Shown one piece after another: positions 1 through 36,467 of a stretch of 36,467 nt of DNA. Position 1 is the stretch's first letter. Each line of letters opens with the position of its first letter. Source of the stretch: a virus. The notes under the pieces were generated by a model that saw only the letters and a program-made list of their open reading frames with translations, was not told the DNA's origin and did not search any database. The position numbers were made by a program, and so were the translations under genes. Location of the stretch: positions 1 through 36,467 of the IMG/VR virus record IMGVR_UViG_3300009073_000026; one strand, given 5' to 3'.

Positions 1-1678
1 CGGAGCGGACGGTCTAGACTGTTGGGATCTAAACGGCAACGGTACTGGAGACCCAGCTGAAGATATCAATAACGATAGCGTCTACGATGCAAACGATTGT
101 AAAGGAGCGGACGGAGCAACAGGAACAAACGGAAACAATGGAGCAGACGGAGCACCAGGAGCGGCTGGCACAAATGGCACGGATGGCACGGATGGAAACA
201 ACGGAGCGGACGGTCTAGACTGTTGGGATCTCAACGGCAACGGTACTGGAGACCCAGCTGAAGATATCAATAACGATAGCGTCTACGATGCGAACGATTG
301 CAAAGGAGCAGACGGAGACCCCTTAACGATTGAAGACAGCCTGACATCGACATCAACAACAAACGCCCTAAGCGCAAATCAAGGACGAGCGTTACTAGAT
401 AGTATAAATAATATAAGCGGCAGCGGCGGCGGCGGCGGCGATCCTTTAGTTTTCGAGATGACCGCACTGACTGGTAGTATCTCTATGGGCAGCACAATAA
501 GTTTAACCGATTCTGACTGGCTGACTCAAATCGACAACAAGTCAATTTTAGACGCAACTAATGACCGTTTAATTATACCGTCAGGCGGCGGTCGGTACTT
601 GTTTGACTTTAGCGGAAATGACAACAAAAGCACTACGTCGGGCACTGGCTACAGGATCAGACTAACTGACGGCGGCTCGATTACCACCATAGGCGAAACT
701 TATATTAAAAATCAAGGATCAGGGGCGCAGAATAGTCAATTTAGAGCGACGGGAGTCAGAGACTTTACAGGAGGCGAAGAGATCACTTTTGGAATGACTG
801 GATATATATCCTCTTCTATTGCCGACGTGATCATCAGAGTAGTAGAAATAAAAGAAAACAACGGAACGGACGGCCTAGACTGTTGGGATCTAAACGGTAA
901 CGGTACTGGAGACCCAGCTGAAGATATCAATAACGATAGCGTCTACGATACGGACGATTGCAAAGGAGCAGACGGAACAAATGGAACAAATGGAAATGAC
1001 GGAGCAGCTGGAACAAATGGCACGGATGGCACAAATGGCACGGATGGAAACAATGGAGCGGACGGCCTCGACTGTTGGGATCTAAACGGCAACGGTACTG
1101 GAGACCCAGCTGAAGATATCAATAACGATAGCGTCTACGATACGGACGATTGCAAAGGAGCAGACGGAACAAACGGAGCAAGCGTAACGATAGAAAATAA
1201 TCTGACATCGACATCAGCTACAAACGCTCTAAGCGCAAATCAAGGACGAGCGTTACTAGATAGCATTAATAACATTAGCGGCGGCGGAGGCGGTGATTTA
1301 GTATTTTTGAACTTACAAGTAAATGACGGAGGTATCGACAGTAATGATCCGCACCCGTTCGACTTAGACGGAGTTTTCAATACACAATGGGATCCTGACA
1401 ATATTAGGAATTTAACTACAGATAAAATAGAAATACCAACTACTGGAGTTTACTCGATAACATTCTCAGCTCAATGTTACAGATCATCGGGGTCGCTACA
1501 TTTAAAAATATATAAAAACGGCACAATGGAAACAGAGTCATACATTAGCCCATCAGGAAACGCTCACGTCGAAACTAGATTTCTTGGAGAGCTACTAGAT
1601 ACGGACGAAATAAGCTTTGAGAGCCTATGGGCTGACGGATGCAGAAATTACCACATAGAATTAACACAGATCGAATAA
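1..1678 (+). CDS. Collagen-like tail fibre, C-terminal part (5' end off the window edge)
   Basis: The frame is open from base 2 to the stop, giving 558 visible residues. The first in-frame ATG at 458 is internal and should not be taken as the start. It begins with collagen-type Gly-X-Y runs and four copies of a Cys-flanked module (DCWDLNGNG...DPAED...NDC) that reads as two EF-hand-like calcium loops. Two spacers carry the fibre motif NALSANQGRALLDSI. Each is followed by a Gly-rich hinge and a beta-rich, C1q/TNF-like domain; the last one, with IPTTGVYSITFSAQ and a YHIELTQIE ending, closes the protein. It is most likely the distal receptor-binding part of a trimeric fibre. The N-terminal part is the open frame starting at 35105, so the gene crosses the window ends. 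It converges on the integrase gene with a gap of only 6 bases. Domain assignment is by pattern, not by search. Confidence 0.85.
   Translation, partial: GADGLDCWDLNGNGTGDPAEDINNDSVYDANDCKGADGATGTNGNNGADGAPGAAGTNGTDGTDGNNGADGLDCWDLNGNGTGDPAEDINNDSVYDANDCKGADGDPLTIEDSLTSTSTTNALSANQGRALLDSINNISGSGGGGGDPLVFEMTALTGSISMGSTISLTDSDWLTQIDNKSILDATNDRLIIPSGGGRYLFDFSGNDNKSTTSGTGYRIRLTDGGSITTIGETYIKNQGSGAQNSQFRATGVRDFTGGEEITFGMTGYISSSIADVIIRVVEIKENNGTDGLDCWDLNGNGTGDPAEDINNDSVYDTDDCKGADGTNGTNGNDGAAGTNGTDGTNGTDGNNGADGLDCWDLNGNGTGDPAEDINNDSVYDTDDCKGADGTNGASVTIENNLTSTSATNALSANQGRALLDSINNISGGGGGDLVFLNLQVNDGGIDSNDPHPFDLDGVFNTQWDPDNIRNLTTDKIEIPTTGVYSITFSAQCYRSSGSLHLKIYKNGTMETESYISPSGNAHVETRFLGELLDTDEISFESLWADGCRNYHIELTQIE
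2..1190 (+). repeat. Collagen / EF-hand-like repeat modules (left copies)
   Basis: Nearly identical blocks of about 110 bases begin at 2, 203, 863 and 1055. Each encodes GLDCWDLNGNG followed by DPAEDINNDSVYD and DCKGADG, and they are joined by Gly-X-Y stretches. The first pair is spaced 201 bases, the second 192. Two more copies lie at the right edge (36164 and 36374), so the assembly break falls inside this repeat family. Confidence 0.9.
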
Positions 1679-1684
1679 TATTAT

Positions 1685-2893
1685 TTAATCGCTGCTGAAT
1701 TGCTCCAAGCCATCCATCGACGTTAGCTGGACATATTCATCAAATGTTTTTTCTTTTGCGTGGCCCGTAACCTTCATGATCAGATACTTTGGCACTCCCG
1801 ACATCAATGAGTTAGTAGCGAACGAGCGTCGCCCTGTATGCGACGTGATCAACTCCCATTTTTCAAACTCCGTGTCGACGTGAATATTCTTTTTGAAACT
1901 AGGCTTTACAAATTTGCTGTTTATACCAGCTATCCGACAAGCCTCTTTTATGGCTGGATTAGCTTTTTGAGAAGATATATGATTAACGCCTTGTTTTATT
2001 ATTTTGATAAATTTTTTGTTTGATGGTATATAAATCGGCTCGTTTGTTTTCTCAGAAAGTAGCTGAAAATATTGACGACCTTTGTAATTTACAAGACTGC
2101 TTTCTTTTAATTTATTCCAATCACCAAAACGCTGACCTGACCAACAGCCTAATAGTATCAGATTTCTTGCGTTCCTTATCCTAGCGTCGGCATATTCTTG
2201 ATCATATAATTTCTTGAGATCAGCCTCGCACAAGTAAGGAAAAAACGTTTTTCTCTTCTTGATCTTAAAGCTTAAGTATGTATCATTATCTTTTGAGCAA
2301 TGACCATCTTTTATGCAAGCTGTCATCATCGCCCGAAAAATTGACAAATTGCCAGCGGCTGTATTTGTGCTGACTCCGTATTTAGTAAAAAGCAATTTAG
2401 TAAACCCGTGAAAAAAAGCTTTATCGACATCATTAAAAGTGAGCTTGTTGTTATACTCATATACTTTGTCAATGACATTATTATATTTCCCTTCCAACCC
2501 TCGATCATACATTGGGTTATTTTTCAATTTAGCAATTTGCCTAAAATAATAAAATACGGTATCACTCTCTATGCCGAAAATCTTATCATAAGATTTAGAC
2601 ATATTCAGTTTATTGAGCTGACCCTTTATCATAAGCCGCCTCCAAGCATCGTTAAATTTAATTTCGATTTGATCTAGGAAATATTTTAGCGAGTTATATT
2701 CTTGGTACGTTTTTCGGGGCCGTTGTGTTTTTTTGTTCCAATCCCTTATCCTAACTTTTTCGCTTAAGAATTTTTTGAACGGCGGAGAATTTGGCAGCAA
2801 CTTGACAACCAATCTTATGTGGGCAAAACTATTCTTATCCTGTTTATTCACGCCTGACGACCGCACCTCTAAATAAAATTTTACCTTAGACAT
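1685..2893 (-). CDS. int: Tyrosine-family integrase
   Basis: This 402-residue site-specific recombinase should integrate and excise the phage at attP. It has an N-terminal arm-binding domain (about 1-95), a SAM-like core-binding domain (about 110-205) and a C-terminal catalytic domain. Catalytic residues are visible: Arg255 in GQRFGDW, a likely Lys282 in LLSEKTNE, His352 and Arg355 in SHTGRRSF, His378 in TGHAKEKTF, and the nucleophile Tyr387 in DEYVQL. Length and order match the integrases of Bacteroidetes prophages and conjugative elements. It reads away from the attP-like region that starts just upstream of its ATG, and it converges on the fibre gene. No excisionase is adjacent; the helix-turn-helix gene at 13862 is one remote candidate. 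Confidence 0.95.
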   Translation of the reverse strand: MSKVKFYLEVRSSGVNKQDKNSFAHIRLVVKLLPNSPPFKKFLSEKVRIRDWNKKTQRPRKTYQEYNSLKYFLDQIEIKFNDAWRRLMIKGQLNKLNMSKSYDKIFGIESDTVFYYFRQIAKLKNNPMYDRGLEGKYNNVIDKVYEYNNKLTFNDVDKAFFHGFTKLLFTKYGVSTNTAAGNLSIFRAMMTACIKDGHCSKDNDTYLSFKIKKRKTFFPYLCEADLKKLYDQEYADARIRNARNLILLGCWSGQRFGDWNKLKESSLVNYKGRQYFQLLSEKTNEPIYIPSNKKFIKIIKQGVNHISSQKANPAIKEACRIAGINSKFVKPSFKKNIHVDTEFEKWELITSHTGRRSFATNSLMSGVPKYLIMKVTGHAKEKTFDEYVQLTSMDGLEQFSSD

Positions 2894-2922
2894 ATGAATA
2901 TTTTAGTTTATGTTCAAAATCC

Positions 2923-2949
2923 GTCGGACGAATGTCGGACAAGTTTATT
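2923..2949 (+). repeat. Integrase arm-type direct repeat, copy 1
   Basis: GTCGGAC followed closely by TGTCGGACAAGTTTAT. The same composite element recurs in the same orientation at 3129-3155 with 24 of 26 bases identical. The copies flank the tRNA-derived core and sit just upstream of int, as arm-type binding sites of tyrosine integrases do. Each element is itself a tandem pair of GTCGGAC. Confidence 0.7.
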
Positions 2950-3029
2950 AAAAACATACCATATATTATAATTATGAAATACTAAAAACTCAATGCTTAA
3001 AGGGTTTTTGTTGTATGTGTTTAATATTG

Positions 3030-3050
3030 CAAATCCCTCCTCTTCCGCCA
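3030..3050 (+). other. tRNA 3'-end fragment, putative attP core
   Basis: The bases read as the end of a T-loop (CAAAT), the 3' strand of a T-stem (CCCTC), the 3' strand of an acceptor stem (CTCTTCC), discriminator G and CCA. The matching 5' strands (GAGGG and GGAAGAG) are absent upstream, so it is not a complete tRNA. The discriminator G fits tRNA-Ser but the identity cannot be settled here. Phages that integrate into a tRNA gene carry exactly such a fragment, so that the gene is rebuilt after recombination. Confidence 0.75.
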
Positions 3051-3073
3051 AGCGTGATTAACGCGAACTACAT

Positions 3074-3109
3074 AAAAGCTTGTAAGTCAATGACTTGCAA
3101 GCTTTTTTT
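3074..3109 (+). terminator. Rho-independent terminator downstream of the tRNA fragment
   Basis: Arms AAAAGCTTGTAAGTCA (3074-3089) and TGACTTGCAAGCTTTT (3091-3106) pair with a single G-U wobble and run into a T tract. The apical pairs would open to make a loop. It lies 24 bases after the tRNA CCA, so on integration it would end transcription of the rebuilt host tRNA. Confidence 0.8.
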
Positions 3110-3128
3110 ATAAGTTTTCATTACATCG

Positions 3129-3155
3129 GTCGGACATATGTCGGACAAGTTTATA
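3129..3155 (+). repeat. Integrase arm-type direct repeat, copy 2
   Basis: Second copy of the element at 2923-2949, in the same orientation and on the other side of the tRNA-derived core. The shared part is TGTCGGACAAGTTTAT preceded by GTCGGAC. Confidence 0.7.
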
Positions 3156-3216
3156 ATTTTGGTCATTTATACTTTCTTATATTTTCATTTAAGACCTCCC
3201 GACGCTGGTCTTAAGA

Positions 3217-8099: not shown

Positions 8100-8702
8100 C
8101 TACTTACTCTGCCAATCCTTAAGGGCTCTGCTGAAAAGCGACACGATATTTTCAAAGTCTTCTTTAGGCATCTTGAATACAGCGCTGTCGCTTATTATAT
8201 AAAAGTTGCGGCGACCATACTCGGATTTTGATGGATCGTAAACACCCGATAGCTGGATTTGCTCTAAACCGCATTTACAACTTGTCTTTAGTTTGCCGCC
8301 CCTCATATCTACATTGCCTATTAATGTATATACCTTATTAGCGCACTGAACGAACGTCTCTAGGTCTAGGAGTGTCAGGCTGGCAAAACTGTACCGCTTG
8401 TCGCGGTCGATGCTGACGTTGCTAGATACAGCTACATCACCTAAAAGACTACCTATAGAAATAGATGACAGCTCGGACTTTGTTTCTGTAGTGTTGATAC
8501 TCACAGTGAACGCCCTTGTCGTGTCTGTAGCAGCTAGGTCATAGCGACGGACATATTCTAAATCTATCTGAGAATGCAACTTGCTGAATAATGGACTATA
8601 AGATTTATTAAAACTGATCAACGTCTCCTCGACCGACTGGCCGATGGTGAGGGTACTAAGGGCCAGCAGGGCGATTATTGGAAGTATATTCTTTATTATC
8701 AT
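8100..8702 (-). CDS. Exported protein co-transcribed with the repressor
   Basis: 200 residues. A Sec signal peptide is clear: basic start, hydrophobic stretch LPIIALLALSTLTIG, and a cut near GQS. The rest is not recognised; it has a Ser/Thr-rich middle and a Cys pair in SCKCG. It begins 2 bases after the repressor-like gene on the same strand, so it should be made in the lysogen. That pattern fits a lysogenic-conversion protein, for example one that blocks superinfection at the envelope, but no family match is claimed. Confidence 0.75.
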   Translation of the reverse strand: MIIKNILPIIALLALSTLTIGQSVEETLISFNKSYSPLFSKLHSQIDLEYVRRYDLAATDTTRAFTVSINTTETKSELSSISIGSLLGDVAVSSNVSIDRDKRYSFASLTLLDLETFVQCANKVYTLIGNVDMRGGKLKTSCKCGLEQIQLSGVYDPSKSEYGRRNFYIISDSAVFKMPKEDFENIVSLFSRALKDWQSK

Positions 8703-8704
8703 AA

Positions 8705-9115
8705 CTAATTTTCTGAGACCTTGTCTTGATTTTTCTTGATGCGTTTTATCTCAAGCTCCAAATGTTTGATCCGTAGCTCTACAGCTTTGAGATTCATATC
8801 ATGTACTCTTATAAGCTTATCAACTGCCGCCCCTATCGCGTAACTAGGCTCTGCGACCACGCTCGGCTTACTATCAGCTAAAGGAAGATATGGCTGATAT
8901 TCCCCAGGCGAAACACTTGTGAAATATTCTGGAAATTGTCCGTATATGGCATTTCTGACTGAGTCTGTTCTTTTTGTTCGATTATATATTACACTATTTA
9001 ATTGATCGGGAGTTAAATTAACGAGTGGAGCTAACTCTTTAATACTCAAAGTTTTAGCAGTCTTAGACAGATCAACTTTTAGTCGCTCGATTATTTTAAT
9101 TAGTTCTAAATCCAA
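8705..9115 (-). CDS. Repressor-like helix-turn-helix protein
   Basis: 136 residues from a TTG start. A helix-turn-helix is likely at about 26-45 (IKELAPLVNLTPDQLNSVIY). The C-terminal third (about 92-136) is a charged coiled coil (LKAVELRIKHLELEIKRIKK) suited to oligomerisation. There is no S24-type protease domain, so self-cleavage like lambda CI is not expected. Opposite orientation to the Cro-like gene across a palindrome-rich gap marks it as the lysogeny repressor. It also heads the exported-protein operon. Confidence 0.75.
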   Translation of the reverse strand: MDLELIKIIERLKVDLSKTAKTLSIKELAPLVNLTPDQLNSVIYNRTKRTDSVRNAIYGQFPEYFTSVSPGEYQPYLPLADSKPSVVAEPSYAIGAAVDKLIRVHDMNLKAVELRIKHLELEIKRIKKNQDKVSEN

Positions 9116-10792: not shown

Positions 10793-11620
10793 ATGAGGAT
10801 AAACGGATTCTTACAGCTCAAGGAATTTTACAAGATCGTGCTCACTAATCGACACCCTATAAAGCCGCAACACATTAGCCTATACATATTCTATCTTAAT
10901 CAGAATAACAGTTGCGGCTGGATAGAGTGGTTTCAATGCCCTTTTGAGTTTGCTATGGCAGGAGCTAGCTTGACCAATCGTAGGACTTATTATAAATGTC
11001 TCGAAGATCTACAAGTTTGGAAACTGATCGAATACCAAAAAGGGTCGAATCAGTGGACTGCTCCACTGATAAAAGTGGTTGTGCTTAAACGCACATGCAC
11101 TGCCACTTCCACTGCCATACGCACTGCCACTTCCACTGCCACACGCACTGCCACACGCACTGCCACACGCACTGCCACTTCCACTGCCATACATAATAAA
11201 ACTTTAAACTATAAACCTATAACGGGTAACAGCGAACTCGGAGAAAATGCCCCTGAAGAAATACCGATCAATGAATCAAAACAAAAATTTGAGATCGAGG
11301 CGGTCGCCTATCTCGCATCAAAACACCTGTACACGCCAAGCGCGTCGCAGATCGCGCCGCTGCGATCGCTAGAGCGTAGGATAAGGAAATCAATCGAGAG
11401 CCGCGAGGGCCAACAATGGAGAGAAGTATCGACGGAGGCTGTTATCGATTTTTTCAAAGAGATGATAGAAAGCTTGGACGACTGGCAAAGGAAAAACAGA
11501 TTCCAGCCTGACCTATGGGCGAGGGATTTCGACGCGATCGTCAACGGAATGAGACCAACGCCCTCAGCTCTACCGTATTCGATCGACTACTCTAATTGTA
11601 AAAATGACTGGCTAACATGA
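10793..11620 (+). CDS. Replication initiator-like winged-helix protein carrying origin-like repeats
   Basis: 275 residues. The N-terminal 95 (FAMAGASLTNRRTYYKCLEDL, WKLIEY) read as a winged helix of the kind seen in DnaD-like and phage O-type initiators. A linker of about 32 residues is a low-complexity Thr/Ala/Arg/Ser repeat (TATS and TATR units), encoded by eight 12-base DNA repeats. The C-terminal part (WREVSTEAVIDFFKEMIESL, FQPDLWARDFDAIV) would contact the helicase loader. It overlaps the DnaC-like gene by 4 bases, the classic initiator-loader order. The alternative is a transcription regulator. Confidence 0.75.
   Translation: MRINGFLQLKEFYKIVLTNRHPIKPQHISLYIFYLNQNNSCGWIEWFQCPFEFAMAGASLTNRRTYYKCLEDLQVWKLIEYQKGSNQWTAPLIKVVVLKRTCTATSTAIRTATSTATRTATRTATRTATSTAIHNKTLNYKPITGNSELGENAPEEIPINESKQKFEIEAVAYLASKHLYTPSASQIAPLRSLERRIRKSIESREGQQWREVSTEAVIDFFKEMIESLDDWQRKNRFQPDLWARDFDAIVNGMRPTPSALPYSIDYSNCKNDWLT
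11099..11194 (+). repeat. Eight 12-base iterons, putative replication origin
   Basis: Eight tandem units of the ACTGCCACACGC type (starts at 11099, 11111, 11123, 11135, 11147, 11159, 11171 and 11183), varying only in bases 8-12. An AT-rich run (about 11193-11221, containing ATAATAAAACTTTAAAC) follows at once. Iterons plus an AT-rich unwinding element inside the initiator gene is the layout of the lambda origin within gene O. Confidence 0.6.
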
Positions 11621-12800: not shown

Positions 12801-13865
12801 ATGAAAATAGAAAAGTCAATACTTGAGTCGGCTATCGCTAAAATATTTCCACTAGTATCGGAGTCGCCCGTTTTACCGATCCTCGACACGATCTTGATCA
12901 AGTCAAGCGGTAAAAACAAGATCCTATTCGCAGCGAGTAACATCAGGACGACCGCATCGATCACCATCAAGGCGGCACACGCTAAGCCGCTGCAAATGTG
13001 TGTCAATGGAAAACTACTATATAACACGCTGAAAAATTCTCCCGACCAGCCGATCAAACTAGAGGCGGTCAAAAAAATGCTAAGGATCACAACGACGTCG
13101 GGCGTGTATGAAATTGCAATCGAGTCACCTGACGATTTTCCGACACTACCCAAGGCAGACCCAGCCGCTGAACTTGTCGATAACTTTATCCCATCTATCG
13201 CGAGCGTCGCGTTTTCTGCTGCGACAGACCAGCTCAGGATCAATCTAACAGGAATTTATATATCTCCCGAAGTCATAGCCTCAACGGACGCGCATAGACT
13301 TACTATCATAAAGCAGCCGATCAAGATCCCTAAGCCGATCACGCTACCAGCCGAAGCCGCTAAGTACACCAGCACGATCGAGCTACCTGAGCAAATAAGC
13401 ATATTTGCAACAGATAACAACCTCACTATATACGCTCCAATCGAGGACGGCGAAATACTGATCAGCTCTAAACTTATCGCCGAAAAATATCCTGACATCG
13501 CGGCGGTGATACCAGCCAAGAAAAAAGCATCCATCAGCACACTATCACGATCAGCCCTACAAGCGGCACTATCTAGGATAAGGATATACAGCGATCAAGA
13601 CGACGTCTTTATCGCACTGACCAAGAACGAATTAATACTGAGAGCAAAGAGCGCGACCTATCAGAACCAAGCTAAAGAGGCCATCGATATTGACGGCAAT
13701 GACAAGGAAGAAGAACACTATATAAACGCTAAATATGTAGCGGACGCGCTCAAGTTTGTAGCCGACGAAGATCTACAGATCGAGACCCACAAAGCAAATA
13801 TTTTGTTTTATCCAGTCGGCGACCGTTCTAAATTTTGTCTAGTAATGAATAAAACGAAACCATGA
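12801..13865 (+). CDS. dnaN: Sliding clamp, DNA polymerase III beta subunit-like
   Basis: 354 residues, about the length of bacterial DnaN and built of the expected three similar domains (about 1-115, 120-240, 245-354). Family marks are LPILDTILI near the N terminus, YEIAIESPDDFPTLP, the second-domain GIYISPEVIASTDAHRL, ISSKLIAEKYPDIAAVIP, and a final domain ending KFCLVMN. It should form a dimeric ring tethering the host polymerase to DNA. It lies between the helicase-loader block and a helix-turn-helix gene whose ATG overlaps its stop. A full-length clamp is uncommon in a siphophage this small, and no polymerase accompanies it. Confidence 0.93.
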   Translation: MKIEKSILESAIAKIFPLVSESPVLPILDTILIKSSGKNKILFAASNIRTTASITIKAAHAKPLQMCVNGKLLYNTLKNSPDQPIKLEAVKKMLRITTTSGVYEIAIESPDDFPTLPKADPAAELVDNFIPSIASVAFSAATDQLRINLTGIYISPEVIASTDAHRLTIIKQPIKIPKPITLPAEAAKYTSTIELPEQISIFATDNNLTIYAPIEDGEILISSKLIAEKYPDIAAVIPAKKKASISTLSRSALQAALSRIRIYSDQDDVFIALTKNELILRAKSATYQNQAKEAIDIDGNDKEEEHYINAKYVADALKFVADEDLQIETHKANILFYPVGDRSKFCLVMNKTKP

Positions 13866-14176
13866 TGTTATCACCTGAGACCCAAGCTATCGCCGACTTA
13901 CTTAAGGCAATATTAAAACCAGCCATCAGCGAGGTCGTACTAGAAGCCGTCGACATAGGCACGACCCTCAAGGATTTGCCGCCCGTTATGAGTCAGGCGA
14001 CTGTCGCTCGCGCTCTAGACAAACATCCCTCTACGATATGCTCCTGGATCAAGAGCGGACATATAAAGACCGTATTCGTGCATGATATCGCACACATCGA
14101 AAAAACTGAATTACTGCGATTTATAGTCGATAGGAATATAGGCAAAGGAGCAGCTAGAAAAAAACTGAGCGCATGA
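13862..14176 (+). CDS. Helix-turn-helix DNA-binding protein (excisionase-like domain)
   Basis: 104 residues. Residues 43-64 (MSQATVARALDKHPSTICSW) form a MerR/excisionase-type helix-turn-helix, followed by a wing (IKTVFVHDIAHIE). The first 40 residues are helical and may dimerise. ATGATG at the start overlaps the dnaN stop. It could be an excisionase working with the distant integrase, or an early transcription regulator; the sequence does not decide. Confidence 0.7.
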   Translation: MMLSPETQAIADLLKAILKPAISEVVLEAVDIGTTLKDLPPVMSQATVARALDKHPSTICSWIKSGHIKTVFVHDIAHIEKTELLRFIVDRNIGKGAARKKLSA

Positions 14177-14331
14177 TCATAGTATCATTGATCGGCTTTG
14201 TGTTTTTCGTTGTATGGTTTATCGTTAAGATCATCGAGCTTATCATTAAGCGTAATCGGCCAGTCGATAAACACGGCGAAGTAATCAGGTATCGCTGGCA
14301 ACGTCACCAGGTCAAAGCTGATCATCAGTAA
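14173..14331 (+). CDS. Small one-segment membrane protein
   Basis: 52 residues, starting at an ATG that overlaps the previous stop by 4 bases. It begins MIIVSLIGFVFFVVWFIVK, a single hydrophobic segment at about 2-24, and ends in a basic, His-rich cytoplasmic tail (RYRWQRHQVKADHQ). The function is unknown. Such small early membrane proteins can affect the host envelope or exclude other phages, but that is only a possibility. Confidence 0.6.
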   Translation: MIIVSLIGFVFFVVWFIVKIIELIIKRNRPVDKHGEVIRYRWQRHQVKADHQ

Positions 14332-14343
14332 TATATTATCGAC

Positions 14344-14556
14344 ATGAATTATAATCAATGGCATACCTCGGAAAATCTAAAAGCAGAAAGAGACAAAGCC
14401 GTCGCGCTTATCGAATTGATCGACAAGAAAATAAAGTCGGACTTTAGGATATACGACTTTAGTAAATGCAAAAATTGCGGAGGTCGCGGCGGATATCTCG
14501 GCGGCGATTATCATACAGTATGGAAAAATTGTACTTATTGCAAATCAAATAATTAA
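14344..14556 (+). CDS. Small zinc-ribbon protein
   Basis: 70 residues. A helical N-terminal half is followed by CKNC (Cys42, Cys45) with a GGRGGYLGG turn, and CTYC (Cys63, Cys66), a DnaJ-like zinc ribbon. It follows the small membrane-protein gene after 12 bases and belongs to the early block. The function is not known. Confidence 0.65.
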   Translation: MNYNQWHTSENLKAERDKAVALIELIDKKIKSDFRIYDFSKCKNCGGRGGYLGGDYHTVWKNCTYCKSNN

Positions 14557-15003: not shown

Positions 15004-15558
15004 ATGGTTTACGACAAAAAGAAAATATTACCGCTGGATATCAAGCGGCTTACTATCTCATTTTTAAACGGCAATCGCGACCAAAAAAACTATCTACGTC
15101 GAAAATGGGATATTATAGAATATCATATGAGAGGCCAGCTAGATCTATGGTGGCTAAGTAAGGGCGGACAGATATCTATACAATTCGTCAAAGATGGCCG
15201 CTCCCAATCTGCTATCGGACTCGACGGACTAGGTAGTTACAAAGAAAGACAAAAGGCGAGTATGCAGATCAATAACAATCACGCAAAAGATCACCGCATC
15301 ATACTGCACGAATCTACTCACATGATCGGCTGCAAGCATCAGCACGACGAAGCTAAATTACTAAAGGACTCGGATAGATTCGGCGTCAATGTGAGTCAAG
15401 ACGTAGATAGTATAACCAGGTATCGGCAAGCTGGCGAAAAGCGAAATTACTATCTGAGTCTCGGAGATATAGATTTTTTGCACCGCTATGACGAATTTAG
15501 AGCTATCGGCGAACAGTGGCGAAGAGATGAAGCAAAACGAAGAGGGCGGAGTTTATGA
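15004..15558 (+). CDS. Astacin-like metzincin metalloprotease
   Basis: 184 residues. The long zinc motif HExxHxxGxxH is complete (His102, Glu103, His106, Gly109, His112 in HESTHMIGCKHQHD), and the HQHD/DRFGVNV stretch after it resembles astacins. Where astacins have the Met-turn SIMHY, this protein reads SITRY, so the Met is Thr while the Tyr that can bind zinc is kept. The C-terminal YLSLGDIDFLHRY matches the astacin ending. There is no signal peptide or prodomain, so it would act inside the cell, or after lysis. The target is unknown. Confidence 0.75.
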   Translation: MVYDKKKILPLDIKRLTISFLNGNRDQKNYLRRKWDIIEYHMRGQLDLWWLSKGGQISIQFVKDGRSQSAIGLDGLGSYKERQKASMQINNNHAKDHRIILHESTHMIGCKHQHDEAKLLKDSDRFGVNVSQDVDSITRYRQAGEKRNYYLSLGDIDFLHRYDEFRAIGEQWRRDEAKRRGRSL

Positions 15559-28493: not shown

Positions 28494-30953
28494 TTGCCGA
28501 TAACTTGTAACTATAAATCGCTCGCTGGAGTGCCCTATCTGCTGGAGATCTCAGGCGGAGTAAGTGGAGAGGTGCGACTGTATGGTAAACAGGGCGTCGT
28601 CATCAGTATGAACGGAAGCGACACCGACCTACACAAAAGAATAATCAGCACCTCAGCGACTTTTAGTATCATGGTCGACAGCATCCTTGTCGAAAATTTT
28701 ATCACCGATCTAGTCACATCACACGAACAGAAATACACGACGAAAGTCTATGAAGGCACGAAGCTGATATTTGTCGGCTACTTACTCAACGACTCTATTG
28801 TGAGACGACAGGAGTATCGGGCTGGAATACAACTAACAGCCGCCGACCCTTTTAAGTTAATGAAGGGTATAACCTACGCCAACAATGCTGCGCTTTTATC
28901 ATATAGAGGAAATGATACGATACACGAACATTTTATGAAATGCTTTGCAGAAGTTCCGATCGCGACCTCGTTTAGTTTTACGACGGACTGGCGACCTAGT
29001 GGCGTCGGCGGCGGAGACCCATTAACAAAAATAAGAGTCGCACACTCTACATTTTATAAAGCTGGTTTTTTTGGTGTTTCGTTTAGTAATGCGTCACTAC
29101 TTAGAGACGAGTTTTTTAGTTGTTACGAAGTACTGGAGATGCTGCTGACTAGTTTTAATATGCGCGTCTATCAGAGTCAGGGCGTATTTAATTTTGAGCA
29201 GATAAGTCACAGTTTTGACGGAGGTAACACTTTCTATTATGGAGGCGCGAGCGGCACGGTCGGCGTGTCGACTCCCGTCGTTATTGATAGAGAAGATTAT
29301 ACAAGACTTAACAAGCCACTGGAGCGATACATCCCAGCACTAAGACACGTCATCGTCAAGTATGTAGCTGGAGGCCAAGCGAATATCTTAAAAAATTATA
29401 GTTGGAAAACGGACGACGACGACCTCAAGGAAATACACACAATGAACGTGCCCGAAAAAGCTTATATCGCTGCCGTGTTTTCGATACGTCACAGACTTGC
29501 TATCACAAATCCAGCTCTAGCAATCCCAACGCGCCTAAAGTTTAGGATAAGAATAAAGCTTGTAAGCCCTAGCGGCACGGAGTCGATCGCTAGGACGACT
29601 AAAGACATAGGCACGCATAACGTTAATTATCAACCGATATCAATAAACACTAATGACGGGGTCGACGTATGGTCTAGTGTGCAGAGTGCAAGTATACCGC
29701 CGACCCAATTTTTGACAGTGAGCAACTACCAGGAGACGACCGTCAATATCAGGACTCCCGAAATATCAGAAGAGGACGACGTCGTCATCAGTGTACAGAT
29801 AGAGCTAGTAGGTTTATTTGATGGCCTCGGAAATAGTTTTGATAACTCCGAATACAGCATTGACTGGATCGCAAAAGATCACACGCTAAGAGTAGTTAAC
29901 TTGATCACGGTCGGCAATGAGTCAGAGGATGACTACGAGATACATAAGAGCGAAGGCGATCAGCGCAATAGCGAAGTAGTGGAGTTTGTCAGTCATATAG
30001 GCGACGCTCCCGATCAGATCAACTACAGAAAACTACAAAGCGAAAGCGGCTCGGAGTGGGTCGATACCGATAGCTGGAGCAGTGGACTCGCGACAGGCGG
30101 AACAAGGATCAGCACCCTACTTGCAAAGGAGATGCTAGAGATGAGAAAAAAACCGACAGAACTATTTGACGGTACAATATGGAGACTCAAGCCGCTATAC
30201 TTTAATAATAGGATCGACATAGACGGCACTGTCTACATCATACTGAGGGGCAAAAAGAGCACGGGCGTCGACGAGGTCTCAGGTGTATGGGCGAGTATAG
30301 GTCACGGCCCATCGGTCAAAGACACGATCGGTGATACGATAATTCTAGACCGACTAGACATCCCTATCGGACTCGACCCTGGATCACCTCCCGACAGCAA
30401 TTTTGGTTCGGACATTTTAGAGCCGCCTCGATCAGTGAATTATACTAACGAGCGACTACCTGACGCTGTCGGACTGACTTCTATCCCGATCAACAAAAAT
30501 ATATACAGCCCGATCAATGAAGGTGACAGTATCAGACTGGTCGATCAGACGACGGGCAACATAGAGCGATTTACAGTTATTCAAGACTTGACACCAACAG
30601 ACAACAGCCTACTGATAATAAACAAAACACTCGACGCTCCTATCCCAGCTGGCACTCCGATAATAGTAGACTCACTAGGTAGCGGCGGCAAACTATACGA
30701 AGAGTTTGAAAATGTAACTAGTAACAAAATAGCTATCACCAACACCCTACCCGACACCACAATTTTTAGCGAGGGTTTTATAAAGAAAAATATCCTTGTA
30801 TATCTCAACGGCGTCAAGTGCAGATATGTCACAAGCGCACCAAGTCAATTAAATCGATACACGATAAACAGCATCAATAATGAAATAGAATTTAGTGAAG
30901 CCTTAGAGGGTGACGACTACATAGAGGTATATTATCCGCCTGACCTATTATGA
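28494..30953 (+). CDS. Large tail-tip / baseplate protein
   Basis: 819 residues from a TTG start. The N-terminal 350 (ITCNYKSLAGVPYLLEISGG, FVGYLLNDSIVRRQEYRAGIQLTAADP) look like a distal-tail and hub structure and are similar in style to tail proteins of other Bacteroidetes prophages. The C-terminal 400 are beta-rich. Position directly after the tape measure fits a tail-tip protein. No enzymatic motif is seen. Confidence 0.75.
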   Translation: MPITCNYKSLAGVPYLLEISGGVSGEVRLYGKQGVVISMNGSDTDLHKRIISTSATFSIMVDSILVENFITDLVTSHEQKYTTKVYEGTKLIFVGYLLNDSIVRRQEYRAGIQLTAADPFKLMKGITYANNAALLSYRGNDTIHEHFMKCFAEVPIATSFSFTTDWRPSGVGGGDPLTKIRVAHSTFYKAGFFGVSFSNASLLRDEFFSCYEVLEMLLTSFNMRVYQSQGVFNFEQISHSFDGGNTFYYGGASGTVGVSTPVVIDREDYTRLNKPLERYIPALRHVIVKYVAGGQANILKNYSWKTDDDDLKEIHTMNVPEKAYIAAVFSIRHRLAITNPALAIPTRLKFRIRIKLVSPSGTESIARTTKDIGTHNVNYQPISINTNDGVDVWSSVQSASIPPTQFLTVSNYQETTVNIRTPEISEEDDVVISVQIELVGLFDGLGNSFDNSEYSIDWIAKDHTLRVVNLITVGNESEDDYEIHKSEGDQRNSEVVEFVSHIGDAPDQINYRKLQSESGSEWVDTDSWSSGLATGGTRISTLLAKEMLEMRKKPTELFDGTIWRLKPLYFNNRIDIDGTVYIILRGKKSTGVDEVSGVWASIGHGPSVKDTIGDTIILDRLDIPIGLDPGSPPDSNFGSDILEPPRSVNYTNERLPDAVGLTSIPINKNIYSPINEGDSIRLVDQTTGNIERFTVIQDLTPTDNSLLIINKTLDAPIPAGTPIIVDSLGSGGKLYEEFENVTSNKIAITNTLPDTTIFSEGFIKKNILVYLNGVKCRYVTSAPSQLNRYTINSINNEIEFSEALEGDDYIEVYYPPDLL

Positions 30954-30996: not shown

Positions 30997-32880
30997 ATGA
31001 AGCAAATACTATTATCCATTTTACTGATCTTAACAACGACTACGATCTACGGTCAGAAATTAAAACAACTAGAGCACGCTGACGGCGAAGGGTATACAAT
31101 TTTCACCGACCCGACAGGGCGACAAAAGTACATCCTGTTCGATTCGCTTACCGTTGCGAAGGTCTTACAATTTGACACAGCAACCGACTCACTCTATTTG
31201 CTAACAAAATACGGCGACACATTGAGCAGCGTATCGCTCAGCTCACTCGCAAACCAGTCACTGAGCTACAGCACCCCGAATGATATTATAAGCTTGACAG
31301 GCGGCGGCTCTATCGACATCACAGAGGTCAATACAGATGATCAGACGTTAAGCGTGTCAGGATCTAGTCTGAGTATAAGCGGAGGCAATACCGTGACATT
31401 ACCAAGCGGCGGAGGCGGCGGCGGAGATCCCGATCAAACCTTATCCTATACGGCAGCTAGTGACGTTATCAGCATCAGCGGCGGCAATGCTATCGACATC
31501 ACAGAGGTCAATACAGATGATCAGACACTCAGCTTTAATACATCGAATCAAAACCTAAGTATCGGAGGCGGCAACACGATAAGCCTTAGCACCCTACTAA
31601 ATACAAATACCGATAATCAAAATTTAAGCCTCAGCGGAAACAATCTAAACATAAGCGGAGGTAGTGGCGTGAGTTTAGCAAACTACACGCAGTCGCTAGG
31701 ATATAATAATTCTACGAACCTCTTAACACTAAGCAACGGCGGCGGAAGCATAAACAGAAACGATCTACAATTAGACCAGCTCATTAATTATTCACCCACT
31801 ACAAAACAAATTTCGCTATCAAGCAGCGAGGGGGCTGGGGTTCAATATGTAAATATCGGATCGCTCAATACAGATGATCAAATACTAAGCTTGAGCGGAT
31901 CGAGTCTGAGTATATCGGGCGGCAATACCGTGACCATCCCGACAGGCGGAGACCCAGATCAAAGCTTGTCCTATACGACATCTACTGACGTCATCAGTAT
32001 CAGCGGAGGTAATTCTATCGACATTACAGAAGTCAATACAGACACCCAAAACCTGAGCTATAACACATCGACCGACGTGATCAGTCTGACCAATGGCGGC
32101 TCTATCGACATTACAGAAGTCGATACAGATGATCAGACGTTAAGCGTGTCAGGATCTAGTCTGAGCATAAGCGGAGGCAATAGCGTGACATTACCAAGCG
32201 GCGGAGGCGGAGACCCAGATCAAACCTTAAGCTATAGCGGAGCAGCCTTGTCAATCAGTGGCGGTAATACTGTGTCGCTACCTTGGACTAAAAGCGGAGT
32301 CAATATTTATACCGACGGCGGCAATGATAGAGTAGGGATCAGAACTAATAACCCAACTCAAAACCTCCATGTAGACGGATCAGTCAGAATAGAGGGCGGT
32401 CTATATGATAGAGATAACTGGCATGGAACAAGCGGCACGAGATTATATAGTGGAGGCTTGGCTGGCGTTTCATGGGAGTACTATTCATATGGAAGCACGA
32501 CAGGAAACTCAAGTCAAACGATAACCACATCAAACACAACTTTAACTCTAGGAAGCGGCGGTCAGGCGTATAATATGACATCGGGTAGCAACGAATTAAC
32601 GAGCACGCACGGCGGCGTCTATTTGGTAAATTTTCAAACCGAAGTCTATTATATATCGTCAACGGCAAATATCAAAATACAACTTTATAAAAATGGATCA
32701 GCATTCGGCAAACCAGCGTACAGCCCTTATGTAAGTTCGACAAATTACAAAAGTTCAGTTTCGACAATTGGCATGATAACACTTTTCCCTGGAGATGGCG
32801 TCAGCGTCAGAGCTACCATATACGACGGCACGTCTGCAAAGGTCGACGAAAAATATCTAATACTAACACAGGTAAACTAG
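30997..32880 (+). CDS. Fibre-like repeat protein with a Sec signal peptide and C-terminal C1q-like domain
   Basis: 627 residues. The start MKQILLSILLILTTTTIYGQ is a clear Bacteroidetes signal peptide, cut after YGQ. Residues about 85-430 are repeats built from two motifs: DQTLSVSGSSLSISGGNTV and VISISGGNAIDITEVNTD, with Gly-run hinges. A short IRTNNPTQNLHVDG segment follows, then a C-terminal beta-sandwich (GGVYLVNFQTEVYYIS, IKIQLYKNGS, YLILTQVN) like that of the collagen-like fibre. A tail or side fibre is likely. Why it carries a signal peptide is an open question. Confidence 0.8.
   Translation: MKQILLSILLILTTTTIYGQKLKQLEHADGEGYTIFTDPTGRQKYILFDSLTVAKVLQFDTATDSLYLLTKYGDTLSSVSLSSLANQSLSYSTPNDIISLTGGGSIDITEVNTDDQTLSVSGSSLSISGGNTVTLPSGGGGGGDPDQTLSYTAASDVISISGGNAIDITEVNTDDQTLSFNTSNQNLSIGGGNTISLSTLLNTNTDNQNLSLSGNNLNISGGSGVSLANYTQSLGYNNSTNLLTLSNGGGSINRNDLQLDQLINYSPTTKQISLSSSEGAGVQYVNIGSLNTDDQILSLSGSSLSISGGNTVTIPTGGDPDQSLSYTTSTDVISISGGNSIDITEVNTDTQNLSYNTSTDVISLTNGGSIDITEVDTDDQTLSVSGSSLSISGGNSVTLPSGGGGDPDQTLSYSGAALSISGGNTVSLPWTKSGVNIYTDGGNDRVGIRTNNPTQNLHVDGSVRIEGGLYDRDNWHGTSGTRLYSGGLAGVSWEYYSYGSTTGNSSQTITTSNTTLTLGSGGQAYNMTSGSNELTSTHGGVYLVNFQTEVYYISSTANIKIQLYKNGSAFGKPAYSPYVSSTNYKSSVSTIGMITLFPGDGVSVRATIYDGTSAKVDEKYLILTQVN
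31260..32290 (+). repeat. Internal repeats of the fibre gene at 30997
   Basis: At DNA level the block encoding DQTLSVSGSSLSISGGN recurs near 31340, 31885 and 32135, and the SIDITEVNTDDQ block about five times. Copies near 31340 and 32135 are almost identical over about 80 bases. This is a likely site of recombination or copy-number change, and an assembly risk. Confidence 0.75.
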
Positions 32881-32935
32881 ACAACCAAAACCAAACAAAG
32901 AAAACAACATTTAAGAAAATCACTAAACCGAAAAT

Positions 32936-33247
32936 ATGAATTTGCAGGCATACCCTATATCACCAGATCAAATACTAAAGATAACGCCAGCATCGATGGC
33001 TGGCTATGGATTGGCTTTAGCGGTGTTAGCTTTAGTCGCTTATGTATTTTATAAGAGATGGCACGAACTAGAGATATACACTAGAGCGCGAGACGAAGCA
33101 CTAGCAACCTCCGCAAAAGACACGATAGCCATACTGGCAAAAGTAGAACTGAGGCTGCACGATCAAAAAGACATGAAGGATCTTATAAAAAGCTTGATCA
33201 CGACAAACGAAAATATATTACAGATCATACAAAAAAAGAATCAATAG
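32936..33247 (+). CDS. One-segment membrane protein, holin candidate
   Basis: 103 residues. A single hydrophobic segment at about 20-38 (SMAGYGLALAVLALVAYVFY) is followed by a basic-to-charged helical tail of about 60 residues (RARDEALATSAKDTIAILAK). Size and layout fit phage holin-like proteins common after the fibre genes. The endolysin is on the other side of attP on the circular map, so the assignment is from topology alone. Confidence 0.55.
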   Translation: MNLQAYPISPDQILKITPASMAGYGLALAVLALVAYVFYKRWHELEIYTRARDEALATSAKDTIAILAKVELRLHDQKDMKDLIKSLITTNENILQIIQKKNQ

Positions 33248-33292
33248 CGATCAGTAGCAACGACCAATTATCAATAATAAATCATTAACTCA

Positions 33293-33826
33293 ATGTTCAG
33301 TATAGGTAAATATTTTAGGAAGAGAAACGAGGAGCGACTAGCTACAATACAGGCACTCGCTGAGGAGACTAAAAACCTAAAAGAGAATTTTATGTTCGTA
33401 GCCGCTCCGCTTGTCAATCTAGGTAATTATATAATTCCGACTGACAGCTATGTGACATCGCCCACTGGCGCGATGCTGCGAATAGTGCAACACAAAGACG
33501 ATATTATCAAAGAAGTAGAAGAACCGATAAGAGATGTATTAAAGAAAATAGATTTTGATGCCTCGACTGTTATTTGCGTCTTGAGTAAGGCTGGAGATTT
33601 TTTTGCAAAGCACTATCACGAACAACAGGAAGAACTATATATAATACGGGGCGCAATGGACTCGCTCTTAATTGCTAAACATTCGCCAGAGGGCCGCATC
33701 AAATTTAGAGAGGGTGATTATATAAAAATACCGCCGCTACAAGTACACGCGTACACATACGTCGCGCCAAGCATTACGATCGCCGTGATCACTCCTAGAG
33801 TCTATCTAGCAAAACTAGAATTATAA
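33293..33826 (+). CDS. Cupin-domain protein
   Basis: 177 residues. The cupin metal site is visible: HYHEQQEELYIIRG gives His107, His109 and Glu114, and the second motif REGDYIKIPPLQVHAYTYV gives His152. The first 45 residues are a charged helix (RKRNEERLATIQALAEETK) with no signal peptide. Cupins bind metals or small ligands; the ligand here is unknown. It lies between the membrane protein and a small conserved gene, in the late region, where a metal- or sugar-binding accessory role is conceivable. Confidence 0.8.
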   Translation: MFSIGKYFRKRNEERLATIQALAEETKNLKENFMFVAAPLVNLGNYIIPTDSYVTSPTGAMLRIVQHKDDIIKEVEEPIRDVLKKIDFDASTVICVLSKAGDFFAKHYHEQQEELYIIRGAMDSLLIAKHSPEGRIKFREGDYIKIPPLQVHAYTYVAPSITIAVITPRVYLAKLEL

Positions 33827-33856
33827 TTTTTTTAAGTAACCACATAAATCATAATA

Positions 33857-34213
33857 ATGGATAACAGTCTAACAACTAAAGAAACAACGGATTTTCTAAA
33901 ATTCATTTTTGATCTTGGCGACGCAGTGCTCGGAGCACTAGACGACAACAAGATCACGACCCTCGACGCTCCTAGATTCTTAACCGCCGCACTCAACGCA
34001 CCGACAGCGATCGAAGGTATCAACAAGATACCAGCCGAATTGCTAGATCTCAGTGCAGAGGAAGCGACAGAACTCAAAGCGATCATCGTCAATCGTTTTG
34101 ATATTCCAGACGATCAAGCTGAGATACTTTACGAAAATATTATGCTGAATGGGATCGGAATGTTTAGAAGCATTCATCGACTATACAGGCACAAAAAAAC
34201 GCCTATCGCATAG
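33857..34213 (+). CDS. Small acidic helical phage protein
   Basis: 118 residues. The sequence (FLKFIFDLGDAVLGALDDNKIT, then PAELLDLSAEEATELKAIIV) resembles a group of short helical phage proteins found near lysis and fibre genes in Bacteroidetes phages. Their function is unknown to me. A short basic end (RLYRHKKTPIA) closes it. Confidence 0.6.
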   Translation: MDNSLTTKETTDFLKFIFDLGDAVLGALDDNKITTLDAPRFLTAALNAPTAIEGINKIPAELLDLSAEEATELKAIIVNRFDIPDDQAEILYENIMLNGIGMFRSIHRLYRHKKTPIA

Positions 34214-34303
34214 GATGTACTTTTTTCATCGTGATCAAGCCGTCGACGCTCAAAGGAGTGTCGGCGGCAATTTTAAACAACTCAAGAAAACCAAACTAAA
34301 ATA

Positions 34304-35068
34304 ATGAGACAAAAAACAAACCCTAAAATTTCGACAATAATTATTCTTGCTTTAGCTATCATGATCATCGGACAGTCATGTCTAGATACTGAGCCGCCTA
34401 CTTTGTTTAAGTGTGGATTTAGTAACGGAGCAGCCAGCGTCGACAGCATCACGACAGCGGATAATATTATCGCGCTTGAGACGCACCCAAAACCTAAGAT
34501 CTATCTATCATTTAATTATATGAGTGACTTTTTATCGGACACAATAATCAGCATATCGGACGACCTCACTAATCTAATGATATACGAACTCGATCAAGCC
34601 TTTTACGGGCTTATCGATTTTGAGTTACATGACAATACTTACAACTTTATTTCAGGAGGCTACACGATAGACGAGGTATTCTACGGAGGTCTAAACGAGG
34701 AACAATCTGAATACTTTAGAAGTCACACCGAGGACGACGTCATCAATGTATATGTCACCAGGTCAGACTCAGATATAACAGGGTTTACATTTATGTCAGT
34801 CAATCATGTAGACCCCGATATCATACAAGGTCACTGGTTTTTAAATAGTTTATTTATTGGAGATAATAGTTTCGACGATGACAGTACTATCGCGCACGAG
34901 GTCGGACATTTATTCGAGCTTAATCATGTCGTGTACAACGGCTATAATGGAAAAGTTGCCTGTGATAATTTTATGTCTTATCTGCCGTGTTCAAGCACCT
35001 ACACGCTCCAGCAACTTGACACGATAATCCATAACCTGATCAACAAACGAGAGTACTTAATAAAGTAA
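34304..35068 (+). CDS. Lipoprotein-like metzincin metalloprotease
   Basis: 254 residues. A signal sequence ends in IIGQSC with Cys26 as the lipidated residue, so the protein should be anchored in the envelope. The zinc site HEVGHLFELNH (His198, Glu199, His202, His208) is of the HExxHxxxxxH type, with Glu at the usual Gly position. CDNFMSYLPC follows with a Met-turn candidate Met224. The closing TYTLQQLDTIIHNL resembles the end of pappalysin-like (M43) proteases. It is unrelated in sequence to the astacin-like gene at 15004 beyond the zinc motif. Confidence 0.75.
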   Translation: MRQKTNPKISTIIILALAIMIIGQSCLDTEPPTLFKCGFSNGAASVDSITTADNIIALETHPKPKIYLSFNYMSDFLSDTIISISDDLTNLMIYELDQAFYGLIDFELHDNTYNFISGGYTIDEVFYGGLNEEQSEYFRSHTEDDVINVYVTRSDSDITGFTFMSVNHVDPDIIQGHWFLNSLFIGDNSFDDDSTIAHEVGHLFELNHVVYNGYNGKVACDNFMSYLPCSSTYTLQQLDTIIHNLINKREYLIK

Positions 35069-35104
35069 CTAGCGACCAACAAAAAAACAACCAAAAAATT
35101 AATA

Positions 35105-36467
35105 ATGAAAAATCTTATACTAGCAATTTGTATTCTATACGCGGCGTCAGCTGCAGCACAAGACATCACCTTTATCAAGCTAGAAAGTGGAGTCGTCAAA
35201 GTCGATGACGATGGCGAACTATTCTACGCTCAACCTGACTTATACGAGATGGCCATCGACTCCGACTCAGATAGCATTAGATTCTATAAAGCTGGCGAAC
35301 GGAGTAACATTAGCTTTAAAGACGTGCCCATCTCTAGAGCGTTTGTTTACACAGATATCGACTGGCTTAATTGCGACCCACAACAACCGCCAGCAAATAA
35401 TAATATCGAGGCCGTCGATTTTATTGTTTCTAATTTTTTCAAGTCAGGCGGCACGGAATACCAGACCATCGACAACATGATCGACCAAGACAACTTATAC
35501 GATAACGACGATACCAAGTACCCGACCCAGCAAAGTGTAAAAGCTTATGTCGACGGTAGTAGTGTGAGAGTGCTGGACGTCCTAGGATCAACGTCGGGAG
35601 TCGCCGCACTTAGCGCAAATAAAGGCACTGAGTTAGTCGACAGAATAGAGGAAATCAGAGACTATGTCGATGCCAGTTCTATACATCCGATAGACTCTTT
35701 AACATCAAGATCTACAGATCACGGTCTTAGTGCCAATCAAGGCCGCTTATTATACGACAGCTTAAAACTCAACAGAGTCAGCTTTAATCAGCTAGGCGAA
35801 TCTCTACAAGACAGCATCGATAATCTAGAGTCATACGTCAACACTCAAGACTCGTTCTTACAAGACAGCATCGATAATCTAGAAACATACGTCAACACTC
35901 AAGACTCGACCTTACAAGACAGCATCGATAATCTAGAAACATATGTCAACACTCAAGACTCGACCTTACAAGACAGCATCGATAATCTAGAGTCATACGT
36001 CAACACTCAAGACTCGTTCTTACAAGACAGCATCGATAATCTAGAGTCATACGTCAACACTCAAGACTCGATCTTACAAGACAGCATCGATAATCTAGAA
36101 ATATATGTCAACACTCAATACTCCTCACTACAAGACAGCATCGACAATATAGAATTATCGGCTGGAGCGGACGGCCTCGACTGTTGGGATCTAAACGGCA
36201 ACGGTACTGGAGACCCAGCTGAAGATATCAATAACGATAGCGTCTACGATGCAAACGATTGTAAAGGAGCAGACGGAGCAGCTGGAGCAGATGGAAACAA
36301 TGGAGCAGACGGAGCACCAGGAACAGCTGGCACGGATGGCACGGATGGCACGGATGGAAATAATGGAAACAACGGAGCGGACGGTCTAGACTGTTGGGAT
36401 CTAAACGGCAACGGCACTGGAGACCCAGCTGAAGATATCAATAACGATAGCGTCTACGATGCGAACG
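35105..36467 (+). CDS. Collagen-like tail fibre, N-terminal part (3' end off the window edge)
   Basis: The frame runs open from this ATG to the window end (454 codons) with no stop. MKNLILAICILYAASAAAQ is a Sec signal peptide. After it come DTKYPTQQSVKAYVDG and two fibre spacers (GVAALSANKGTEL, HGLSANQGRLLYDSL). Seven 18-residue helical repeats (LQDSIDNLETYVNTQDST) and the collagen/EF-hand-like modules follow. The same modules open the window at base 2 in a frame that ends at 1678, so both parts belong to one gene of at least about 980 codons. It is probably the receptor-binding fibre. Confidence 0.88.
   Translation, partial: MKNLILAICILYAASAAAQDITFIKLESGVVKVDDDGELFYAQPDLYEMAIDSDSDSIRFYKAGERSNISFKDVPISRAFVYTDIDWLNCDPQQPPANNNIEAVDFIVSNFFKSGGTEYQTIDNMIDQDNLYDNDDTKYPTQQSVKAYVDGSSVRVLDVLGSTSGVAALSANKGTELVDRIEEIRDYVDASSIHPIDSLTSRSTDHGLSANQGRLLYDSLKLNRVSFNQLGESLQDSIDNLESYVNTQDSFLQDSIDNLETYVNTQDSTLQDSIDNLETYVNTQDSTLQDSIDNLESYVNTQDSFLQDSIDNLESYVNTQDSILQDSIDNLEIYVNTQYSSLQDSIDNIELSAGADGLDCWDLNGNGTGDPAEDINNDSVYDANDCKGADGAAGADGNNGADGAPGTAGTDGTDGTDGNNGNNGADGLDCWDLNGNGTGDPAEDINNDSVYDAN
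35804..36160 (+). repeat. 54-base tandem repeats coding an 18-residue stalk
   Basis: Copies begin with CAAGACAGCATCGA at 35807, 35861, 35915, 35969, 36023, 36077 and 36131 (the last partial), exactly 54 bases apart. The protein unit LQDSIDNLETYVNTQDST has hydrophobic positions spaced 4-3-4-3-4, a pattern close to an 18/5 helix period, suited to a nearly straight trimeric stalk. Confidence 0.9.
36164..36467 (+). repeat. Collagen / EF-hand-like repeat modules (right copies)
   Basis: Two copies begin at 36164 and 36374 (210 bases apart), the second cut by the window end after 94 bases. It differs from the copy at base 2 by two visible bases, so it is either a separate copy or a variant of the same one. 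Confidence 0.85.

Follow-up and report, generated by a model that had tools for sequence, protein, structure and literature searches.

Sec signal peptides on fibre-like proteins of a temperate siphophage point to a possible export route for tail fibres in Bacteroidota phages

The IMG/VR record IMGVR_UViG_3300009073_000026 (36,467 bases, analysed here over its full length and called the window) encodes a temperate siphophage in which two fibre-like proteins, here named fibre 1 (30997..32880) and fibre 2 (35105..36467, continued at 2..1678), start with Sec signal peptides. In tailed phages, construction of the tail is assumed to take place entirely in the cytoplasm. Considering the N termini of these proteins, the position of fibre 1 and the fibres of isolated relatives, we give an about even chance to the reading that fibre 1, and probably also fibre 2, are virion tail fibres which Sec carries out of the cytoplasm and which, once cleaved, stay in the periplasm until lysis, when they are joined to tails. 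The broader proposal, namely that Sec export of fibres, a Gln/pyroglutamate N terminus, periplasmic folding and mounting only at lysis form a recurring route among tailed phages of Bacteroidota, seems to us evenly balanced. The host is probably a member of Bacteroidota, judging from the kind of integrase and of signal peptide as well as from the relatives.

Signal peptides and domain composition of the two fibres

The features that carry this reading are the following (aa, amino acids).

28494..30953 (+): tail-tip protein directly upstream of fibre 1; family of Flavobacterium phage 11b gp43 and Cellulophaga phage phi10:1 gp088 (jackhmmer)
30997..32880 (+): fibre 1, 627 aa; predicted Sec signal peptide at residues 1-19, Gln at +1; SLSGSSLSISGGNTV-type repeats; C-terminal beta domain
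35105..36467 (+): fibre 2, N-terminal part; predicted Sec signal peptide at residues 1-18, Gln at +1; repeats of the phage-fibre type; QDSIDNLE repeated six times; modules of the collagen and CWDLNGNG types
2..1678 (+): fibre 2, C-terminal part, beyond the record break; further CWDLNGNG/collagen modules; phage tail fibre repeats of PF22337 (1.8e-19); C-terminal beta domain resembling BclA

A preliminary description of the window had noted signal peptides on both fibre genes and a lipoprotein signal on the protease encoded at 34304, and our analyses confirm all three. The predicted N termini are MKQILLSILLILTTTTIYG/QKLK in fibre 1 and MKNLILAICILYAASAAA/QDIT in fibre 2 (the slash marks the predicted cut). 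The start of fibre 1 is certain because an in-frame TAG directly precedes its ATG, and that of fibre 2 is fixed because the upstream frame is closed by the stop of the peptidase gene and offers no other start codon. Signal peptides were called with our own rule-based scan rather than with SignalP, and fibre 1 passes this caller only when the Bacteroidota Q-rule term (Gln at +1) is included. When each protein was shuffled 20,000 times, a comparable signal arose in 28 (fibre 1), 8 (fibre 2) and 26 (peptidase) cases, equal to 0.04-0.14%, and none of the 113 open reading frames (ORFs) of at least 200 aa in six other Bacteroidota phages reached the threshold.

The Q rule of Bacteroidota signal peptidase I substrates has been published, including Q-rule genes in phages (PMC10367356). 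The phages of Porphyromonas gingivalis described there resemble the window in carrying genes with Bacteroidota-type signal peptides, but those genes are of unknown function, were read as possible outer-membrane modifiers and were not tied to fibres or virions. We compared 17 N-terminal families, among them fibres 1 and 2 and both signal-bearing proteins of a Flavobacteriaceae prophage (L215), which have a charged start and a hydrophobic core in common. The pattern [AGS]/Q occurs at the predicted site in 16 of them, against 0.11 expected per 25-aa window (P ~1e-14), and the same feature is found in 19 of 22 host signal peptides in the fetched Bacteroidota loci.

Fibre 2 does not end at the window edge, and the preliminary description had to be corrected in this respect: its C-terminal half lies at 2-1678. 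Because both record ends carry the same collagen/CWDLNGNG repeat, and the open frame that enters from base 2 continues this repeat as far as 1678, the record is a permuted phage genome broken inside this repeat of fibre 2; no exact terminal overlap of the record ends is left. The C-terminal part matches PF22337 (Phage_fiber_rpt) with 69.5 bits against a curated cut-off of 27. Its CWDLNGNG modules, for which no Pfam model gave a match, have paired cysteines 26 residues apart and calcium-loop-like sequences. The AlphaFold model of fibre 2 is moderate, and its C1q/BclA/CBM35-like matches are weak. Fibre 1 contains no cysteine, and no PF22337 repeats were found in it by Pfam; the AlphaFold model of its C terminus was poor (predicted local distance difference test score 42) and was not used.

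Signal-bearing fibre-slot proteins annotated as virion proteins in Cellulophaga phages

Fibre 1 occupies the fibre slot (downstream of the tape measure protein and the tail-tip protein), 43 bp after the tail protein gene at 28494, whose product has no signal peptide. Since no close relatives of the tail protein, fibre 1 or the peptidase were detected in INPHARED or IMG/VR, distant profiles and positional comparison were used. The sole terminase relative in IMG/VR (L007) ends short of the fibre region, and the matches of the tape measure protein listed from INPHARED all lie outside Bacteroidota.

The most informative comparison is with eight isolated Cellulophaga phages: phi10:1, phi19:1 and Nekkels_1 (Assiduviridae), phi18:3, phi19:3 and phi46:3 (Pachyviridae), Ingeline_1 (Duneviridae), and phi39:1. 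Among the 28 fibre-slot proteins of these phages that were examined, 27 were called with a signal peptide, and that of the 28th, phi39:1 gp25 (MRKLILFFGLIFCLEMAA/Q), is evident by eye; none of nine upstream proteins of these phages has one. Several of the fibre-slot proteins are annotated in GenBank with 'experimental MS/MS proteomics analysis' (MS/MS, tandem mass spectrometry), namely phi18:3 gp085-087, phi10:1 gp091-094, phi19:1 gp101-104 and phi39:1 gp25, and a GenBank note assigns phi39:1 gp26 to the virion by MS/MS, which brings the total to 13 proteins in four phages. In phi10:1, the protein just before the signal-bearing fibres is gp088, itself an MS/MS virion protein by its GenBank note and a member of the family of the tail protein at 28494. 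The window and these phages are linked by agreement in position, tail-protein family and signal peptide, not by fibre sequence. Both have, downstream of their tail genes, fibre or lyase proteins of large size, which are consecutive in the Cellulophaga phages; all of these proteins carry a Sec signal peptide, and Gln is at +1 in nearly every one. They differ in that no lipoprotein metzincin is annotated in the stretches of the Cellulophaga genomes that were read, and in that a hairpin and a peptidase gene set fibre 2 of the window apart.

A similar arrangement was observed in L215, whose tail protein was found with the family profile. It is followed by a Phage_tail_2 protein and two signal-bearing proteins of 692 and 531 aa, and next in line are a membrane protein, an M15-type endolysin and a lipoprotein that resembles a spanin. 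The order is that of the window, and in L215 the two signal-bearing proteins stand ahead of the lysis genes. No fibre lacking a signal peptide was found in the window or in the L215 stretch from the tail protein to the lysis genes. The 531-aa protein of L215 led us to Nekkels_1, whose fibre-slot proteins all start with signal peptides; Nekkels gp55 had been considered an ordinary fibre without a signal peptide, but reading its sequence showed the opposite.

Signal peptides are absent from the fibre-slot or tail proteins read in 11b, P2559S, P12024S, P12002L, B40-8, phiST, 6H and RAP44. A Sec signal on fibres is a recurring variant in Bacteroidota phages and not a rule. PF22337 alone was rejected as a marker of the variant, as PF22337 proteins in fully readable Bacteroidota genomes lack signal peptides. 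Another locus (L178) was discarded as a further case, since its signal-bearing neighbours look, by eye, like a host secreted-protein cluster. In a prophage whose fibre has no signal peptide (L237), a 345-aa signal-bearing protein is encoded inside the structural genes (13475-14512, -).

Organization of the region between the tail genes and the integrase

The remaining features of this region are as follows.

32936..33247 (+): 103-aa membrane protein with one evident helix; position like that of a holin; resembles phiST gp31 in layout only, no family assigned
33293..33826 (+): cupin-domain protein; Pfam Cupin_7 (5e-7); no export signal
33857..34213 (+): 118-aa protein; no family, no signal peptide
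34239..34268 (+): strong terminator-like hairpin with a 13 bp stem and a 4-nt loop (-28.3 kcal/mol, z -5.2), ahead of AAUUUUAAA
34304..35068 (+): 254-aa lipoprotein peptidase; lipobox AIMIIGQS/C; metzincin-type zinc site HEVGHLFELNH; candidate Met-turn NFMSY
1685..2893 (-): tyrosine integrase of the Phage_int_SAM_5 type; gene convergent with that of fibre 2; the mark of a temperate phage

The genes for the tail protein, fibre 1, the 103-aa protein, the cupin and the 118-aa protein follow one another with gaps of 30-55 bp and no structured intergenic RNA, and no terminator stands between the tail gene and fibre 1. The hairpin sets the peptidase and fibre 2 apart from the late genes of this operon, which gives no support to the maturation system suggested in the preliminary description. 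Fibre 2 is separated from the fibre slot by other genes as well as by the hairpin, and it ends 6 bp from the convergent integrase gene.

The peptidase has the lipobox, the HExxHxxxxxH motif and the Met-turn of a lipoprotein metzincin, with Glu in place of the usual metzincin Gly. It scores 5e-5 and 23.6 bits (cut-off 23) with Pfam Peptidase_M43, and 0.0023 and 17 bits (cut-off 208) with NCBIfam TIGR03952. It is best explained as an accessory envelope protein rather than a proven fibre protease. A metallopeptidase has been noted in the Maribacter phages Molly and Colly (PMC8776804), which, like the window, encode a short lipoprotein with a metzincin site together with an exported collagen-like protein. 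However, only 16 residues around the zinc site align with the window peptidase, and the collagen-like partner in these phages is itself a lipoprotein and is encoded far from the tail genes. In Maribacter phage Colly_1 (L246, 3380-10014), the gene for the lipoprotein metzincin is close to those for the collagen-like lipoprotein, which bears the annotation 'tail fiber', and for an OmpA protein with a signal peptide, and the fibre annotation is doubtful.

Secreted cellular relatives of the fibre modules

Across 247 Bacteroidota genomes, most of the closest relatives of the fibre 1 repeats belong to large proteins of the host. Of the five relatives found in a later comparison, four have signal peptides, and two match the C-terminal sorting domain (TIGR04183) of the type IX secretion system (T9SS), one above the cut-off (L201) and one below it (L200). 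Secreted Bacteroidota repeat proteins (T9SS-type adhesins and collagen-like CWDLNGNG proteins) thus share with the window the kind of signal peptide, the fibre 1 repeat units and the paired-cysteine module of fibre 2, but differ in that the two host relatives of fibre 1 match the sorting domain, which is absent from fibres 1 and 2. Without such a domain, both fibres should remain in the periplasm. Among cellular CWDLNGNG ORFs with readable N termini, 42 of 74 have a signal peptide or a lipobox by our own caller, and the second cysteine is present in 95 of 105 motif copies. The CWDLNGNG module (many loci among L019-L098) occurs widely in collagen-like proteins, which are often exported, from groups that include Bacteroidota, Planctomycetota and Thermoplasmata.

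Proposed route of the fibres and alternative explanations

According to the proposed route, fibre 1, and probably fibre 2, would leave the cytoplasm late via Sec, and signal peptidase I would cut at the Q-rule site, so that the mature fibre would start with glutamine, which the host would probably turn into pyroglutamate. Folding and assembly would follow in the periplasm, which would offer fibre 2 calcium and the chance to form disulfides, and the fibres would be mounted on tails once the lysis proteins open the envelope. The preliminary description had suggested that exported fibres enter the virion either in the periplasm or at lysis. Their export and their membership of the virion gain strong support from the four relatives with MS/MS annotation, whereas the joining itself, like the cleavage of the peptide and the presence of the fibres in the virion of this particular phage, is what we infer from them. 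Fibre 1 makes the stronger case, and fibre 2 might instead belong to the cell surface and be expressed separately, together with the metzincin.

Several points weigh against this route. The place of fibre 2, behind a terminator-like hairpin and beside the integrase, is a frequent site of lysogenic-conversion genes. Virion membership of both fibres in this phage, a metagenomic record, would be deduced from relatives, and phmmer finds no similarity of fibre 1 or fibre 2 to the MS/MS-verified fibres. The MS/MS evidence was taken from GenBank notes, and fibres freed at lysis could co-purify with particles. The repeats of fibre 1 also occur in secreted host surface proteins. In addition, the lyase module of Nekkels gp55 recurs with ~66% identity inside the signal-less tail protein of phiST, so export is not needed for that fold, and there are two N-terminal ways of bringing one and the same module to its place.

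It is therefore possible, although we regard it as the less probable explanation, that the fibre-like proteins are exported but do not belong to the virion, and are secreted from the lysogen or late in infection as surface adhesins, as receptor blockers or as a surface-remodelling pair with the metzincin lipoprotein. Llp of phage T5 is a receptor blocker of this sort, which stops progeny from binding to the dying cell. The occurrence of the fibre 1 repeats and the CWDLNGNG module in secreted or lipoprotein cellular proteins would fit such a role, as would the peptidase and fibre 2 forming a unit next to the integrase and the lipoprotein metzincin and collagen-like 'tail fiber' of Molly and Colly far from the tail genes. 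However, such proteins are annotated from MS/MS as virion proteins in four relatives, fibre 1 lies in the tail operon, fibre 2 has phage fibre repeats, and the window would be left without any separate fibre. The narrower idea that these are lysogenic-conversion genes only was downgraded once the MS/MS-annotated Cellulophaga fibres appeared.

It is improbable, in our view, that the signal-like N terminus, instead of serving export, stays on the fibre as a hydrophobic helix that docks the fibre to the tail tip during assembly in the cytoplasm. The annotated presence of the proteins in virions of relatives would be compatible with this, and among several phages the first 131 residues, signal included, are 94-97% conserved and the remainder is replaced, as in a docking domain. 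However, there is no reason why a docking helix should retain a site for signal peptidase, with Gln at +1, in nearly all of the families compared, and the selection for a cleavage site implied by this pattern favours export and cleavage over a retained anchor. Furthermore, Sec would be expected to capture such sequences, and related signal-less fibres exist with other N termini.

Least probable is the envelope-located maturation system of the preliminary description, in which the anchored protease, the cupin and the membrane protein process exported fibres: the protease and both fibres are indeed exported and encoded close together, and Molly and Colly again combine a metzincin lipoprotein and a collagen-like protein that is exported, but the cupin lacks an export signal, phiST has the order tail protein, membrane protein, cupin and endolysin without a fibre signal peptide, and the fibres of phi10:1, phi19:1, phi18:3, phi19:3, phi46:3, Ingeline and phi39:1 have no annotated metalloprotease next to them in the regions read.

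If the Sec-export route is true, passage through Sec would give the fibre access to disulfide bonds, calcium and pyroglutamate capping, and secreted adhesins and lyases of the host could be borrowed ready-made with their signal peptides, at the price that the fibre must be mounted after export. The view of host-range evolution in marine and gut Bacteroidota phages would change accordingly, and 'secreted' genes annotated beside phage tails may be fibres. We found no paper that ties signal peptides to virion fibres; this search mostly did not cover subscription papers, so it is weak evidence of novelty.

Other features of the phage genome

Besides the tyrosine integrase, the gene set of the window includes an Amidase_3 lysin, TerL, a portal protein, a prohead protease, an HK97-type capsid protein, a tape measure protein and a tail protein. 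Between the integrase and amidase genes (2894-3216), two near-identical blocks (GTCGGAC...ATGTCGGACAAGTTTAT) and a hairpin were observed, which are candidate attP and integrase arm sites. Another Q-rule signal peptide (MIIKNILPIIALLALSTLTIG/Q) is present on a 200-aa protein encoded within 8100-9115 (-), where a small adjoining gene (8705-9115) is a possible repressor by position. Neither matched a Pfam family, and the 200-aa protein is a candidate for an exported protein that acts in lysogeny or in superinfection exclusion. A second zincin-like motif, HESTHMIGCKH, was found at 15004-15558 in a protein without a signal peptide and with weak Reprolysin matches. In the replication region, a gene at 10793-11620 has an internal 12/24-base tandem repeat (~11092-11192) encoding TATSTAIRTATSTAT-like residues. 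The phage also encodes a DNA polymerase III beta clamp of its own (12801-13865), in which all three Pfam domains are present.

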